The notes beneath the pieces were generated by a model. It ran no database searches and was not told the DNA's origin. It saw nothing but the letters and a program-made list of their open reading frames with translations. DNA of 15,272 nucleotides, from contig QZLH01000165.1 in assembly GCA_003833135.1 (NCBI GenBank), forward strand, positions 110,636 to 125,907, read 5' to 3'. Position numbers and translations under genes: made by a program. The DNA comes from Oehlia diaphana. Lineage: Eukaryota; Glomeromycota; Glomeromycetes; Glomerales; Glomeraceae. This document shows, one piece after another, positions 3,242 to 13,347 of the stretch; the first letter of the stretch is position 1; the number at the start of each line of letters is the position of its first letter.

Positions 3242-3830
3242 GGAGGTAAACATTTCAATTATTACATCGATGCGTTAGAAAATCACCCCATATTATATTT
3301 TTGAATTCTGAATATTTGGTTCATTTTGGAAAGTAAGGTCGCTCGTGCCTAATTGGAAAAATACCGATATAATTTTATTCTAATAATTTAAAATCTGATT
3401 CTTAGAGAAATTGTCAGTAATATATTAAATTTTTTAATTTTAATTCAAAGTTTATATTTATAATTTAATCTTCTACTTTTGTTTACTTAATAATTGCATG
3501 TTCATTTTTATGCGAATATATATAATAAAATACTATGGAATCACAACGATAAGAAATAATATAATATGTAATTTATTAAAATAATTATATTTTTTTAAAA
3601 AAAAAAATAATGTCAAATTTTTATTTCAGAAAAAAAATACTAGTTACGTTTTTGTTTTAGAATATACTAATGGAGGACACATTAACTTATTTAAACGATC
3701 ATTTTTAATGAACTTGAATGAGAAGTTTAGCGTAATAGCTGACGATTCTATATTATGTTTATATGAACGTAGTATATTCATCGTGATTTGGTAATATATT
3801 AAAACTTTTAATGAATTAACTTTGTTTATC
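3242..3830. other. A+T-rich spacer
   Basis: No supported gene or RNA. There are several short A or T runs, including a T/A run near 3590-3608. The 65-codon minus-strand frame at 3644-3841 has no protein-like features and runs into the MITE end. Confidence 0.5.
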
Positions 3831-3999
3831 GCCGTTTTCAAAATGGTTGATGCTGTTTATGTTGGATGAAAAAAAATAAAAACCGAAAACCAGATGATAA
3901 CCGGATGAACACCGGACAAATAATGGACGAAAACCGGGCGAATATTGGTATTCGAATATTTAATCATAAATAAATAGCATCAACCATTTTGAAAACGGC
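3831..3999. mobile_element. MITE with near-perfect terminal inverted repeats
   Basis: The left end GCCGTTTTCAAAATGGTTGA followed by TGCTGTTTAT is mirrored at the right end by ATAGCATCAACCATTTTGAA then AACGGC, giving about 28 bp of inverted repeat with one or two differences. The interior is 110 bp with repeated CCGGA/CCGAAAAC motifs and no frame. The total is 169 bp. A second copy of the left end lies at 8462. A target duplication is not clear. Confidence 0.8.
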
Positions 4000-4020
4000 T
4001 GTAAATAAATTAAATTAAAT

Positions 4021-4615
4021 GGTATTCGGACTTTTATCCAAAGTCCATTTCATCGAAACCCCATTTCTCTGAATTCCATTTCGCAGAAGCCATTTTATCG
4101 AATCAAAAATTTCATTGAATGGACATTTCGCTTTATTCCATTTAGTTATTTTATTTGTTTTTATAATAGAAATCATTTCTAGATAAATTTTGAATTAGCT
4201 GATTTTTATTAAATTATTACTTCGTTGTTTATATTAATATACATTGATCTTTTTTTTTATTTATTTTTTCGTGAATAAATGTTTTCAGGAAAATAAAGAA
4301 AGTTATTTATTTATTGCTTAACAATTAATATCAGTTACTTGAATGTTGAAGTAATAATATCCTGGAAAAAAAAATCTCTAAAATTATTTTAATTTTTATT
4401 TTCATTGCATGATAAATATTTTTTATAAAAATGTTAACGCTATGAAATGTCCATTTGGCAATATGAATATTCGGTGAAATGGATGATTCGGTGAAATGGA
4501 TTCGATAAAATATACTTTCGGCGAAAACGTCCTTTTGGTGAAACATCCCTTTCGGCGAAATGGCAAAGTCGAAATGGGTCTCGGTGAAATGAATCTCGGT
4601 GAAATGTACGTAACC
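4021..4615. mobile_element. Element with opposed subterminal motif arrays
   Basis: The right end (about 4470-4607) holds about eight direct copies of a motif like TTCGGTGAAATGG or TTCGGCGAAATGG. The left end (4045-4132) holds four or five copies in the opposite orientation, such as CCATTTCATCGAA, CCATTTCTCTGAA and CCATTTTATCGAA. The 280-bp interior is A+T-rich without genes. The proposed ends are GG at 4021 and CC at 4615, flanked by AAAT on both sides (4017-4020, 4616-4619). That duplication is weak because the flank is low-complexity. Opposed subterminal arrays are typical transposase-binding regions of non-autonomous DNA transposons. Minus-strand frames here (4331-4617) only translate the repeats. 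Confidence 0.65.
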
Positions 4616-8309: not shown

Positions 8310-8461
8310 ATTGTAAGTATATCTTGATGCATTTATTATGTTATATTTTAAATCATTTTTTTAATTTTTTTTATTTGCATTTTTTTTTTTTTTTTAATTA
8401 TGTAACATTTCATACTTCATAAACATTCTTTTTAGCAGTAACTATCGAATTGGTTATTATC
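8310..8461. other. 3' flank of the 8007 gene
   Basis: T-rich sequence with several AATTAA/ATTTTA stretches that could serve 3' end formation. No gene is seen. Confidence 0.35.
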
Positions 8462-8537
8462 GCCGTTTTCAAAATGGTTGATGTCGTTATGTTTGGATGA
8501 AAAAAAAAATAAAAAAACGAAAAAAATTTTTTTTTTT
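8462..8537. repeat. Second copy of the 3831 MITE left end
   Basis: GCCGTTTTCAAAATGGTTGA and the following TGGATGAAAAAAAA repeat the left end and first inner bases of the 3831-3999 element. The preceding TTATC is shared too. The copy then runs into an A/T tract. No matching right end is found downstream, so it is truncated or one end of a larger element. Confidence 0.7.
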
Positions 8538-9001: not shown

Positions 9002-9024
9002 ATCAGTAAATTTTTTGGGGCGCG

Positions 9025-9141
9025 GATTCCAAAAATCCTGTAATTAGTAAGGATCCCTAAGGAACCTTCCCCACCAGCGAGGATTCCCTATCATATAGAA
9101 TCTAAGGATCCTAAATTTACCATTAAGGAATCCTTAAGGAT
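9025..9141. repeat. Left subterminal CCTTAAGGAT array
   Basis: Repeated AAGGATCC, GGATTCC, AAGGAACC and TTAAGGAATCCTTAAGGAT motifs, mirrored at the other end of the element. These are likely sites recognised by a transposase. Confidence 0.6.
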
Positions 9142-9366
9142 ATTTATTGTTAGATTTATTATTAATTCATTTATTTATAGATTTATTAATGTATTAATGT
9201 AATTTATTAATTTTATTTATTTGTCAATATATTATTACATATTTTTTCTAATTAATAAAATATAAAGAAAATTCAAAATAAAAATTAAAGATAAATAAAA
9301 CATATTTCTTAATATACACTTTCCACCGAAAAATATTAAATGATAGATTTCGCAGCGAAACTTATC

Positions 9367-9516
9367 ATTTTTAAATTCTTTACTCTCCTGATACCCTAGA
9401 TAACCTAAAATAAAGAACACTACTTAACTTTATAAAAAAAAAGAAAATAAACGAGAAGTTTCTAATGAAACTTACCGTTTATAAATTATTAACTCTCCTA
9501 TCAATACCCAGACAAC
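9367..9516 (-). other. Two further exon-like units (L and M)
   Basis: On the minus strand, 9516-9476 lies between acceptor TTTTTTTTTGTAG and donor GTAAGT. Segment 9404-9367 lies between acceptor TTTTAG and the donor-like ATAAGT. The two segments are homologous: GTTGTCTGGGTATTGATAGG versus GTTATCTAGGGTATCAGGAG. They lie downstream of the proposed stop codon in unit J. They may be untranslated exons or decayed copies. Confidence 0.4.
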
Positions 9517-9903
9517 CTACAAAAAAAAAACAAGTAGATTAATGTTCTTTTAAAAAAAAGGAGTTTCTAAAACTCCAAACCTTAGCCAAAGTTTTGAGCA
9601 GTTAAACTAACATGAAAAGCAGCAACCATATAATAAGTACTCTCATCATCTAAATTTTGCGGCTACAAAGTTCATATTTAGTAATGTAAAGTACCTTCGG
9701 TCTGAAAAAACGCGAAAAAAGAAAAATAAATGAATATTTTCACTTTTTTTGATTTAATAAATATTATTAATTAATCTTTTTTTTCTTACCCAATTTCATT
9801 ATATTATCAATAAAAATGGTGCGAGAATATTTAACTCAGATTATACCCATATACTTCAATATCTGGACGCTGCTTTATCGTAATATCCAGACCTCAGAGA
9901 GTA

Positions 9904-10954
9904 TCAAAAAACCACCTAAAAAAAAATATATAACGAACATTAAGTAATATTTGTTAGAATAAAAAAAATTTCAAAATAAAGAAAAATAATTACTTTTTTA
10001 CTTGTTATTTTTTCTTACTTTGTTGATTCCATGTCTAGGGAGACTCAGAAAAACTGCCTAAAAAAAGGAAAAAAAGATGAATTAGTAATGTTCGTTAAAT
10101 TAAATAAAAAAAAAATCTTTTTTTTTTTTTTTACTTACCGATATCCTAAGTCTAGAGAGACTTGAAAAACGGCCTAAAAAAGAGGATTTCACGTCCAGAA
10201 AATATTCAAAATTCGCCTAAAAAAAGAAATAAACGAACAGTTAGTAATGTTCGTTTATATAAAAAAAAACTCGAAAAAAATAAAAAAAGTATTATTTTAT
10301 TACCTACCAGTCCCACATCTGGAGGCTCGAAAAAAATGCTTAAAAAAAAGAAAAAAATGAACAGTTAATAATGTTCGTTAAAATAAAAAAATAATTTTTT
10401 TTTTTCTATTTTACTTGCCAAATGTCCTATTCGAATACCCAAAAACTCAGCCGTCTAAAAAAAAGAGAACAGTTTAGTAAAGTTCTTTATTAAAAAGGAA
10501 ATATCACTTTTTTATTTGCTGAAATCCACACCTAAAAAAAAGGAAATAAAACAGAACGTTAGTTAACGTTTCATTAAAATAAAAAAAAATTAAAAAGTTC
10601 AAACTTACCATAATGCAGCATACCATGGAAATCCAAAAGAACCTAAAAAATGAAACACTAGTTAATGTTTTGTTAAAATAAAAAAAAAATTTTTTAAAAT
10701 AACTATACCAGTTACTGCAAGAAAATCTGAAAGAACTGCCTAAAAAAAAAAACGATCTGTTAGAGACCGTTCGTTAAAAGACGGAAGAAAATAGATAAAA
10801 AAATACTTAAACTTACCAGAGTACTGCCTCCAAAGAAATCCGAAAGAGCCGTCTAAAAAAAAACAAAGAAAATGATTTAGAAACTGCTTGTTGGAAGAAA
10901 AAGTTAAATATAAAAAAAATAAAATCTTACCGGAATCTGACTGCCAAGTACTGA
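9904..10954 (-). CDS. Micro-exon gene, ten short exons
   Basis: The product is unrecognised. Minus-strand segments, from 5' to 3', are A 10954-10931, B 10852-10817, C 10739-10709, D 10642-10609, E 10531-10520, F 10454-10419, G 10338-10308, H 10173-10139, I 10057-10019 and J from 9915. Acceptors are T-runs ending TAG (AAG for G). Donors are GTAAGT/GTAAGA/GTAGGT/GTATAG, with GC donors for E (GCAAAT) and F (GCAAGT). Most introns carry TACTAAC or a close variant upstream of the acceptor. Entering A in phase 1, all exons read open in one phase and end at TGA 9906-9904, giving about 95 residues plus an unknown N-terminus. Exons are themselves related; B, C, D, H and I share a GCAGTTTTTCNGATTTC-like core. 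The peptide is rich in Phe, Ser, Trp and Arg. E could instead be 24 nt (donor GTGATA), which keeps phase. The alternative is a non-coding tandem repeat that mimics splice sites. Confidence 0.45.
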
Positions 10955-10977
10955 CTAAAAATACAGTAAAACGTTAC

Positions 10978-11139
10978 TCAACGTTTCGTTATGGATTTTG
11001 TAGAAAGAGGAAAAGAATGGGCGAAGATAAAGGACGGGGAAAGGAAAGGCAAGAAGGGAAGGGGATAAGGACAAGGGAAAGACGACAAAGTGATAATAAA
11101 AAAAAAGATCAGCTGATTATCAGCTGGTAATATTATCAT
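10978..11139 (-). CDS. 53-codon hydrophobic frame, possible first exon
   Basis: The minus-strand ATG at 11139 opens MIILPADNQLIFFFIITLSS, followed by a Pro/Phe/Ser/Leu-rich stretch, and stops at TGA 10980-10978, just upstream of micro-exon A. The LIFFFIITL run would suit a signal peptide or membrane anchor. It lies 52 bp downstream of a TATA-like TATAATATAG (11200-11191). The pyrimidine-rich coding strand may instead be a CT-rich fungal leader. No consensus donor joins it to exon A in phase, so a link to the micro-exon gene is only suggested by position. Confidence 0.25.
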   Translation of the reverse strand: MIILPADNQLIFFFIITLSSFPCPYPLPFLPFLSPSFIFAHSFPLSTKSITKR

Positions 11140-11190
11140 GTGATATACGTGATACAATATTAATTTTATTTGTATTTCCCGGTTCTTTGT

Positions 11191-11200
11191 CTATATTATA
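11191..11200 (-). promoter_or_regulatory. TATA-like element inside the TIR element
   Basis: The minus strand reads TATAATATAG, just inside the right subterminal array and upstream of the ATG at 11139 and the micro-exon train. Position and orientation suit a promoter, but such strings are common in A+T-rich DNA. Confidence 0.3.
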
Positions 11201-11216
11201 AAAATAAAAATAAAAT

Positions 11217-11367
11217 TTCTTGGATTCCTTAAAGATTTTTGTATAGGAACTTTCACCAATTCATAGAATCCTTAAGGATCTTCATGATTTATCTAAGGAT
11301 TTTAAGGATTCTATAAATTGCCAGATCCTTAAAGATTCTGGAACAATTTAAGGAATCCTTAAGGATC
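11217..11367. repeat. Right subterminal CCTTAAGGAT array
   Basis: At least seven variants of AATCCTTAAGGAT, GGATTCC and AGATCCTTAA, mirroring 9025-9141. The array is longer than the left one. Confidence 0.65.
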
Positions 11368-11390
11368 CATGGTCCAAAAAATTTACTGAT

Positions 11391-12313
11391 AGTATGAGAA
11401 CATCTTGAGAGGGGACATTAAAATATCATTGCCACATTCGGAGCATGAATATAGTTCTGGGAAATCAATATCTCCAACAGTTTCATCATCGAGACTTTTG
11501 AGGATATTATATCCAAGGTTTTTAAGATTAACAAGAAAAGGTCTCTCAGATTCCGAAATATTGCTCTTTTCTCTATTTTGTGTGTTGCTGATTGGGCCAA
11601 TATTGATATCATCAGCAGTGATCACTTCCGTATTAACTGAGCTCTCTTGGTTCTCCATGATGATGTTTTCCGAAAAAAATAACTGTAATTTCTTGCTTGT
11701 TTTTATATTACTTGTAAATTTTGCAGAAGAAAACATTCCCCAGATTTTCACCAGCAATTACGCACCACATGTTAATCCTCTTGCAAATTGATAAAAATGA
11801 CGAAGGATTAACATAACCATCTCCAGCTCTGAAGGAGCAAATTCCATGTGCGAAATATTGATTGATGGAAAGATATCCATGCCCGAATATTGTTTTGTTA
11901 ATATGATAGTAGCCGTGAACTGGAGACATACACGCAAAACAATCCAAATCGAGTTGAAAAAAGTGATTCGCATGTTGCACAGCCCTATTCTTTGGCAAGA
12001 AATTTACCGAATATCTTTCTGTGCCGGACGATCTACCAAGCTTCTCACATGACGAAATTTGGAATAGATCAAATTCTCAGAATAATGCTTTTAATATCTC
12101 ATCAAGTGGGATTCTGTGCTCTTTGACATTATCACAAAGCAAATAATACTTTTTCTTACCTTGCATATTGATATACCAGATACTTATCGAACAAAATATC
12201 TGTGAAATATGTGGTACGACAAAAAACGGGAAATCGTTATTCATAATAGGATACAGAAAATTAAGGAATTCGCATCGATCTTCTACAAACTCTTTGACCG
12301 ATATCCGTGCAAC
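11391..12313 (-). pseudogene. Decayed gene truncated by the 2.4-kb element
   Basis: The family is not recognised. After an acceptor-like CTGACCTAG, the minus strand is open from 12313 for 78 codons (VKEFVEDRCEFLNFLYPIMN, later WYINMQGKKKYYLLCDNVKE) to TGA 12079-12077. The same frame then continues open for 122 codons (EFDLFQISSCEKLGRSS, LPKNRAVQHANHFF, INMWCVIAGENLGN) to 11711. Near 11740 the reading shifts to another frame, MFSSAKFTSNIKTSKKLQLF, then a Ser/Asn/Glu-rich linker, then LYSCSECGNDILMSPLKMF. That last piece has the first Cys-x2-Cys of a RING or zinc-ribbon-like finger. Reading ends at TAA inside the inserted element, with SYYQ as its last residues and the rest of the finger missing. 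Lesions are therefore one internal TGA, one frameshift and the 3' truncation. The first in-frame ATG is at 12244. ATG 11757 could give a 124-residue product. Confidence 0.6.
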
Positions 12314-12450: not shown

Positions 12451-12545
12451 GTAACTCTGTGTATGTCACTACTCATAATTACGTGATATATTAAACTTAC
12501 AAAATGTAATGACATGATAAACTAGATAAACTTAAACTCGTAAGT

Positions 12546-12946
12546 ATGTCTGAAGCTAAGTTTCCCAAGTATCTATTTCCTCAATTTACGGAAGAAGAAA
12601 TAGAAAAGGCAACTAGAATTATCAACTCCTCTGTGAACTGGACTGAGTACGATAAATGGGTTAAGGCAGGAAAACCTTATCAAGAACACGACGAATTAAA
12701 TATTGATCAGAAACTCGAAAATGAATCAGCTCACAAGAGACCAGCTAGTAAGTCTATTAATTTGTATTCACTCTGCTATTTCATTTTCATGTATAAAAAA
12801 GTCAAACTTTTAAATATTTTTTTAAGGAACCAGATCAAATAATGTTGTCAGAAGATGAAAACAAGAGAATGGATTTAGTTCTAAAAGGAAGGCGACTCGA
12901 AACACTGGGAAAAGAAGCGATGAAATTTCTTAATTTTTTCCAATGA
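12546..12946 (+). CDS. Hypothetical protein, N-terminal part, one intron
   Basis: I do not recognise the family. ATG 12546 opens MSEAKFPKYLFPQFTEEEIE, an acidic/basic soluble sequence with NWTEYDKWVKAGKPYQEHDE. Donor GTAAGT at 12748 pairs with acceptor CCAG ending at 12833 (86-nt intron). The junction makes codon AAT and continues in phase as QIMLSEDENKRMDLVLKGRR then LETLGKEAMKFLNFF, stopping at TGA 12944-12946. The product is 104 residues. An alternative acceptor TTAAG at 12826 leads to an early stop. The next frame starts at ATG 12943, overlapping as ATGA, and looks like the continuation of the same protein. A one-base change in the T6 run at 12934-12939 would account for the break. The start is the first ATG after the divergent promoter region. 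Confidence 0.6.
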
Positions 12947-13347
12947 AAGAACCCCAAGCACCTCTAGTGAGAAAAGTGAATATTGTTATAAAAAATCTAG
13001 ATCCAAACCTATTCCCAACATTAGCAATGTACACAAATCAGATGCTTGAAAATTTGCAAAGAGATGGTATTTTAAATGATGTGATTGGTCTTGATATTAT
13101 AGCGCGTATTAGGGAATTTAAATCTAATAAAAAAGGTGAAATGAAACTAATTGGATCAAATATTGATCATTACAATGTTGTTCCTAAAGAGTCGTATATA
13201 TATTCCTTGACATTACCAAATAATCATTTTTTAGAGCTAAGACATTTGGAGGGCAGATGGTTTAGAGGGTTAGCTTATTTCTCTGATCACAACTCTTACA
13301 CAGAATTTCTTAATATCTTCTTTACAAATAGCACACACAAAGTATGA
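12943..13347 (+). CDS. Hypothetical protein, C-terminal part (134 codons)
   Basis: The frame reads MKEPQAPLVRKVNIVIKNLD, then PNLFPTLAMYTNQMLENLQR, an acidic/basic middle, and ends NSYTEFLNIFFTNSTHKV. It is one of the longest and most protein-like frames in the window, with balanced composition and aromatic residues spread through it. I cannot name a domain. Its N-terminus overlaps the end of the upstream frame by four bases (ATGA). In a fungus this points to a frameshift within one gene rather than two genes. AATAAA-like AAAATAAATC lies about 170 bp downstream. As written, the C-terminal part could be expressed only from its own ATG or by frameshifting. Confidence 0.6.
   Translation: MKEPQAPLVRKVNIVIKNLDPNLFPTLAMYTNQMLENLQRDGILNDVIGLDIIARIREFKSNKKGEMKLIGSNIDHYNVVPKESYIYSLTLPNNHFLELRHLEGRWFRGLAYFSDHNSYTEFLNIFFTNSTHKV

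Follow-up and report, generated by a model that had tools for sequence, protein, structure and literature searches.

Intron-array elements with inverted-repeat ends in Oehlia diaphana: a candidate class of non-coding, spliced transposon cargo

The locus and its row of exon-like units

The window analysed in this study, a stretch of 15,272 nucleotides from the genome of Oehlia diaphana, carries an element of 2389 bp (9002..11390, minus strand) that ends on both sides in 17-bp inverted repeats ATCAGTAAATTTTTTGG (left copy 9002..9018, plus strand; right copy 11374..11390, minus strand). Inside the element, the minus strand presents an array of eleven exon-like cores, each placed behind an acceptor composed of a T-run and AG, and upstream of the array there lies a CT-rich, promoter-like leader (11006..11065, minus strand) with a pyrimidine fraction of 0.92 over 60 nt. 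Outside the element, the plus strand holds a probable gene at 12513-13347, for which an intron at about 12748-12826 was placed by eye. Its frame 12934-13344 shows 99% identity over 96% of the length to the Rhizophagus diaphanus hypothetical protein C1646_754256, and the second part of the gene shows 61-78% identity to named R. irregularis proteins, for some of them over partial length. The near-identity fits a genome of R. diaphanus, an arbuscular mycorrhizal fungus, or of a very close relative. The window further contains three copies of a repeat around CGCCGTTTTCAAAATGGTTGATG (3814-3871, 3959-4016 and 8457-8502, the first two inverted and 87 bp apart), an inverted repeat at 130-294 with 77-nt arms that are 71% complementary and 11 nt apart, and short tandem repeats with a ATTCGGTGAAATGGA-like unit at 4469-4606.

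On the minus strand between 8980 and 11500, 19 sites pass a filter for a T-run plus AG, and ten of these are the starts of unit cores (10852, 10739, 10642, 10531, 10454, 10338, 10216, 10173, 10057 and 9915); the eleventh core, at 10954, falls outside the filter and was placed by reading the strand together with the splice chain. Among the donors following the eleven cores, three are GTAAGT, four are one-step variants thereof (GTAAGA twice, GTAGGT, GCAAGT) and two are weak (GTATAG, GCAAAT); two cores have none close by. A generic fungal splice model, whose matrices represent general knowledge of fungal introns and were not trained on the array, finds in the window element one minus-strand chain of 8 introns with a score of 78.1 bits, as compared to 4.6 bits on average, and 22.4 bits at most, for the best chain in 200 block-wise dinucleotide shuffles. 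The same model returns no intron chain on the plus strand of the element. The layout of spliceosomal introns is thus present in the array, with 5' splice site, branch site, polypyrimidine tract and AG arranged at intron spacing. The train of micro-exons and introns described in the initial annotation is real as regards this chain, and it is damaged in that the donor is weak or lost in 4 of the 11 units. The spacing of 89-120 bp given there has to be corrected: from core start to core start we measure 77-142 bp, and once 43 bp.

Followed down the minus strand, the row opens with a core of 24 nt (10931..10954; donor GTAAGA, intron 10930-10853), known from strand reading and splice chain. Acceptor filter and splice chain together delimit the next two, one of 36 nt (10817..10852; GTAAGT, intron 10816-10740) and one of 31 nt (10709..10739) that has the weak donor GTATAG, or alternatively 24 nt with GTAACT, and an intron reaching to 10643. 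The following core of 34 nt (10609..10642; GTAAGT; strand reading and splice chain) has its intron to 10532 by unit spacing, and the splice chain extends that intron past 10532 to 10455. The unit so skipped has a degraded core (10520..10531; strand reading) with donor GCAAAT, and its branch site and its acceptor, to 10455, are kept. Two cores are taken from the splice chain, one of 36 nt (10419..10454; GCAAGT, intron 10418-10339) and one of 31 nt (10308..10338; GTAGGT, intron 10307-10217), the latter intron having an 11-bp branch-site hairpin around TTACTAAC. Past a broken core lacking a donor (10174..10216; strand reading and acceptor filter), acceptor filter and splice chain again give cores of 35 nt (10139..10173; GTAAGT, intron 10138-10058) and 39 nt (10019..10057; GTAAGA, intron 10018-9916). 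No close donor is found past 9915, and the tail (9385..9915, minus strand) consists of related, degraded units that, judged by eye in reading the strand, run on to about 9385; a related tail is present in locus L019.

Dispersal, ends and relatives of the array elements

The genome searched for copies comprises 108.8 Mb in 1672 contigs. The array interval of the window has at least 77 matches in it, own copy included (40 of 48 candidates scored), and two array types found via the window array, L034 and L024, have at least 87 and at least 83, likewise with their own copies (40 of 101 and 40 of 110 candidates scored); these are counts of matches rather than elements, and the lists overlap in some contigs. 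The search for other copies proposed in the initial annotation consequently reveals a dispersed repeat class in place of one gene. Across 28 sequences (the window and L009-L035), the array units of which were partly found via their own splice signals, we obtained 20 chains with 102 introns, as compared to 1 chain from five shuffles of all the sequences. Two of the chains, one on the plus strand of L016 (5 introns) and the second of L030 (3 introns), do not have the look of the units; they are part of the chain count and of the branch-arm permutation described below, and were left out of the intron-end alignment and of the tests for coding, decay in pairs, leader and folding. The families differ in exon sequence and in unit length (about 100-134 bp) and share one plan: an acceptor, an exon usually of 20-50 nt, a GTAAGT-like donor, a T-rich stretch, a CTAAC-like branch site with inverted arms on either side, a T-run and AG. 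The introns are mostly 70-100 nt long. Among the loci, long arrays are located at C398:76300-82377, C13:284700-287373 and C275:90900-93600.

The ends of the elements are likewise repeated. With a 186-bp query from the right end of the window element, 9 further matches were found in the genome, and the end motif CATCRGKAAATTTTTTNRGR occurs at 305 genome sites with at most 1 mismatch, compared to 1 site for the reversed motif. The array elements have ends of the type CATCRGKAAATTTTTT. Paired ends like those in the window also surround the arrays in L013 (2164 bp), L028 (2500 bp) and L053 (3988 bp). Terminal inverted repeats, one feature by which Tc1/mariner-like elements are recognised, are present in the window element, in these three and in a nested element on contig C398. 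The last, a 3021-bp array element terminating in inverted repeats, sits inside another array element, in a target that matches the last exon-like segment of sister copies. It is flanked by GTGTGGAT and ATGGGTTCG, with AT on both sides, and insert-free sister copies read GGATGGG, GGATGGA, GGATGAG and AGATAGG at the site; since these carry AT only once, AT was duplicated by the insertion. The nested element with its AT duplication therefore shows that array elements have moved. In line with the initial annotation, tandem exon-plus-intron units do lie between inverted repeats, the 17-bp ends flanking the window array, and the elements to which they belong form a class with past movement.

Two-base duplications were found as TA in L054, AT in the nested C398 element, AA in L028, AA in L055 and TT in L053; L013 and the window element have none. 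The TA target duplication expected from strict Tc1/mariner-like insertion is hence restricted to L054. This locus has ends of the array-element type without an array, and its first 17 bases are identical to one end of the array element L053. A stop divides its frame into two pieces, with a DDE_3 match of 36.2 bits (cut-off 28.6) and an HTH_Tnp_Tc3_2 match of 28.9 bits, below the cut-off of 31.5; on these domain matches, the locus carries a Tc1/mariner-like transposase (DDE_3) that is broken. For the catalytic piece the genome gives 129 matches; apart from itself, one is at 89% identity and the rest are at 75% or less. Because of the L054 transposase the group would be classed as Tc1/mariner-like, though the duplications TA, AT, AA, AA and TT misfit a strict TA rule. 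An array-free element of 522 bp in L055 (57-578) has ends CATCAGGAAATTTTTTTAGG of the array-element type, and several end-motif pairs among those listed are about 521 bp apart; L055 therefore has the look of a miniature element that is common in this group.

A second copy of the right end of the window element, together with its CT-rich leader, is found in L046, which also shares the flank beyond the inverted repeat (window 11374-11420). No array is seen in the letters read from L046, and on the inner side the locus runs into different sequence that, by eye, resembles a broken fragment of an ABC transporter. With flank shared outside the inverted repeat, the edge of the element may be part of a longer duplication, and the right boundary of the window element appears less certain.

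Of 16 arrays, 8 are preceded by a leader with at least 85% pyrimidine over 60 nt and at least 22% C, compared to 1 of 196 background blocks; among these 8, L016 and L031 are close relatives of each other. In one family the array is followed by a last exon-like segment and a tail, with AATAAA, a motif common in AT-rich DNA, in the tail of 3 of the 4 copies examined. From the leader, the shared plan of the units and the end segment with tail of this one family, the cargo looks like a complete transcription unit.

Coding signal, conservation and folding of the units

The exons appear to be non-coding. The lengths of 76 called exons are distributed as 24/23/29 over the remainders 0/1/2 on division by three. 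Sorted by open frames, the 70 exons between 20 and 60 nt long fall into classes of 6 (no open frame), 19 (one), 33 (two) and 12 (all three), compared to 6.5, 24, 29 and 10.5 in shuffles. In none of the 18 chains does a frame clearly exceed the length seen in shuffles (lowest p 0.14), in a test limited by the decay of the copies. A translation of 92 amino acids from the joined exons of one copy has no protein relative at E <= 0.001, and a Pfam search with 10 frames of the window gave nothing at E <= 0.01. The claim of a gene built from tandem micro-exons, taken as a protein gene, was abandoned on these grounds: exon lengths without bias to multiples of three, frames as open as shuffled ones and a spliced translation lacking relatives.

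Conservation depends on the level at which it is viewed. Among eight family consensuses, each base of the branch-site motif CTAA agrees in 28 of 28 comparisons and the next base in 11 of 28. Donor positions 1-6 agree in 28/28, 16/28, 28/28, 21/28, 21/28 and 21/21, the low value at position 2 arising because two consensuses read GA for GT in the alignment. Exon columns agree in 137 of 227 cases (60%), and the other intron columns in 525 of 695. Near-equal copies were compared in five chosen pairs, with up to two collinear hits each and hits below 73% identity dropped; substitutions there amount to 12.1% in donors, 13.0% in acceptor trinucleotides and 14.7% in exons, to 8.3% in branch sites and 14.1% in the arms around them, and to 8.0% in the rest of the intron. 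Splice signals that mutate freely among copies, which the initial annotation had named as the mark against its idea, are therefore largely what the near-equal pairs exhibit, donors (12.1%) and AG trinucleotides (13.0%) being almost as variable as exons (14.7%); at the level of the family consensuses, however, CTAA is constant and the donor mostly kept, against 60% agreement in exon columns.

Five sister copies (alignment of L047-L051; four loci, chosen from a search with 40 of 101 candidates scored, 12 units labelled) give a finer view of the decay. Columns with CpG differ in 43% of comparisons and others in 7%, a roughly sixfold density at CpG such as methylated repeats would be expected to show. 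Outside CpG, AG differs in 37 of 224 comparisons (16.5%), exons in 9.9%, 5' splice-site stems in 7-8%, donors in 5.3%, branch sites in 4.7% and branch stems in 4.6%. Single array copies seem to be mostly relics that decay nearly freely, and any constraint would therefore have acted in source copies, prior to insertion.

The inverted arms around the branch site suggest RNA hairpins. For the 83-row alignment of intron ends (83 of 91 listed ends), RNAalifold predicted no common structure, and arm matching was therefore tested unit by unit through permutation, which ignores kinship, several of the loci being sister copies. At 100 sites, the 3' arm fits its own 5' arm better than those of other units, with 3.97 against 3.48 matches for 6-mers (z 6.2) and z values of 5.5 for 5-mers and 7.8 for 7-mers. 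Perfect matches are rare (5-mers 7% against 5% permuted; 7-mers 4% against 1%), and of three shifted controls one is positive (z 3.7), the others giving -1.7 and -2.2. Stems at the 5' splice site comprise 30 perfect 8-mers, compared to a mean of 11.9 and a maximum of 18 upon permutation within loci (z 7.8), for 87 donor-like sites in seven loci, four of which are sister copies. In the window family the donor hairpin is absent or weak. Covariation within one subfamily is weak, the best varying pair having p = 0.08 (22 sites).

Folding of 94 branch regions gives a mean z of -1.93, with 44% below -2, as compared to -0.23 and 9% for 35 control stretches; 94 donor regions give -1.10 and 28%, as compared to 0.02 and 9% in the control stretches. 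Host introns were represented by ten chaperonin loci, in which a scan with the array scoring returned only 5 candidates. A CTAAC branch site is present in none of 14 gaps between chaperonin matches. In the folding control, restricted to 8 of these gaps because strand conversion was doubtful for 6 from two loci, z lies below -2 for 1 of 8 on the 5' side and for 0 of 8 on the 3' side, the 3' windows being set by position and not by a branch site. The first intron of L048, like that of the second array in L047, starts GTAAGTTTC...GAAACTTAC, so that the donor faces its perfect complement ACTTAC, a sequence resembling the 5' end of U1 snRNA.

Interpretation and comparison with known systems

Based on the evidence collected here, we are somewhat inclined to understand the loci as decayed, non-autonomous Tc1/mariner-like elements that carry a non-coding, promoter-led, spliced intron array. 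From the letters of the DNA we infer transcription, splicing, selection and the identity of the mobilising transposase. The cargo would consist of tandem units, each of one short non-coding exon and one intron with strong signals. Transcription probably begins at the CT-rich leader and is probably followed by splicing of the RNA one unit at a time; the branch site may be held in a hairpin, as may, in some families, the 5' splice site. Tandem duplication of whole units could lengthen or shorten the row, and a Tc1/mariner-like transposase would move the elements in trans. In source copies, selection on the splicing of the element's own or the host's RNA may have kept signals and hairpins, and inserted copies would then decay, fastest at CpG. 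The benefit we would place first is that dense and efficient splicing would help the element's RNA, or the host transcripts carrying it, through escape from silencing or through removal. More tentative, though a real possibility, is the wider proposal of a transposon class with splicing as its payload, namely a non-coding row of strong and structured introns, led by a promoter and with selection on introns rather than exons, by which the RNA of the element or of the host at the landing site would become intensely spliced, for example so that the element evades silencing by resembling host mRNA or is removed from host transcripts. The substitution rates of the arms, the counts of perfect arms and the flank shared with L046 speak against selection or against a clean boundary.

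A neutral tandem repeat in a transposon, arisen by amplification of one intron-bearing stretch and retaining an inherited splice look with no present splicing, would account for inserted copies that decay almost freely, AG dinucleotides and hairpin arms included, and for the four of eleven window units with weak or no donor. It is less easily reconciled with families in which donor, branch site and acceptor are mostly retained and exon columns vary more, with stems that differ yet are complementary within the units of one array, or with the recurrence of leaders, and we consider it rather unlikely, if deserving to be taken seriously. The idea that T-rich and AG motifs, frequent in AT-rich DNA, have lined up by chance gains something from the strong T-richness of the strand; with none of the 200 shuffles near the observed score, and 20 chains set against 1 in the five all-sequence shuffles, its probability appears negligible.

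That the cargo might be a decayed protein-coding micro-exon gene, for instance of a repetitive secreted protein, is suggested by the short, repeated exons and by the repeat-rich secreted effectors of this fungal group, such as the SP7 family (PMC11333574). The missing multiple-of-three bias, the lack of an open-frame excess and the spliced translation without relative all argue to the contrary, as do sister-copy exons that mostly keep lengths such as 37, 38, 46, 47 and 48, and that explanation is improbable. Still less probable is an introner-type source whose units seed single introns into host genes. Intron-creating transposons are known in many eukaryotes (PMC9860276), but the elements here bring many introns plus exons of their own, and 8 loci with one or few units show, by eye, no evident surrounding coding exon.

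If the arrays are spliced, the preferred reading of a spliced, non-coding cargo would represent a transposon design with introns as conserved cargo and exons as spacers. With its many copies, it would allow a natural test of whether foreign RNA is shielded from silencing by a high density of introns; it would also supply structured introns and add a new way in which introns spread. Even if silent now, the arrays constitute a sizeable repeat class able to mislead gene prediction in Rhizophagus genomes.

No intron-array transposon is described among the entries listed from one open-licence library of papers, and given that scope this speaks for novelty only weakly. In snoRNA host genes of the non-coding kind (UHG, GAS5, the SNORD115/116 clusters) the introns outweigh the short non-coding exons, and some clusters are tandem. 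The arrays resemble them in their short, apparently non-coding exons and in that the introns would matter more; they differ in having short introns, and known RNA families, snoRNAs included, were discarded as candidates with 0 Rfam matches at gathering score in 10 sources.

Introners and the sister stwintrons of Hypoxylon are single introns in host coding genes (PMC9860276, PMC8469720). The arrays share with introners and introner-like elements the repetition of spliceosomal introns, partly tied to mobile DNA and in some cases with inverted repeats or predicted hairpins; unlike them, many introns with their own micro-exons form the cargo of one larger inverted-repeat element. Micro-exon genes of Schistosoma encode secreted proteins and have introns of up to 5 kbp (PMC10526429). 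Rows of very short exons are common to both, but the array exons look non-coding and the introns are mostly 70-100 nt. The SP7-like effector genes of Rhizophagus come from the same fungal group and have imperfect tandem repeats; they are protein-coding and have one conserved intron ahead of the first repeat (PMC11333574), an architecture so different that an SP7-like effector was rejected as a candidate. With Tc1/mariner-like MITEs, finally, the array elements have in common inverted-repeat ends that resemble the ends of a DDE_3 transposase-bearing element, and dispersed, decayed and nested copies; they are set apart by a body that is an intron array with a leader, and by duplicated bases that are pairs of A and T, not always TA.
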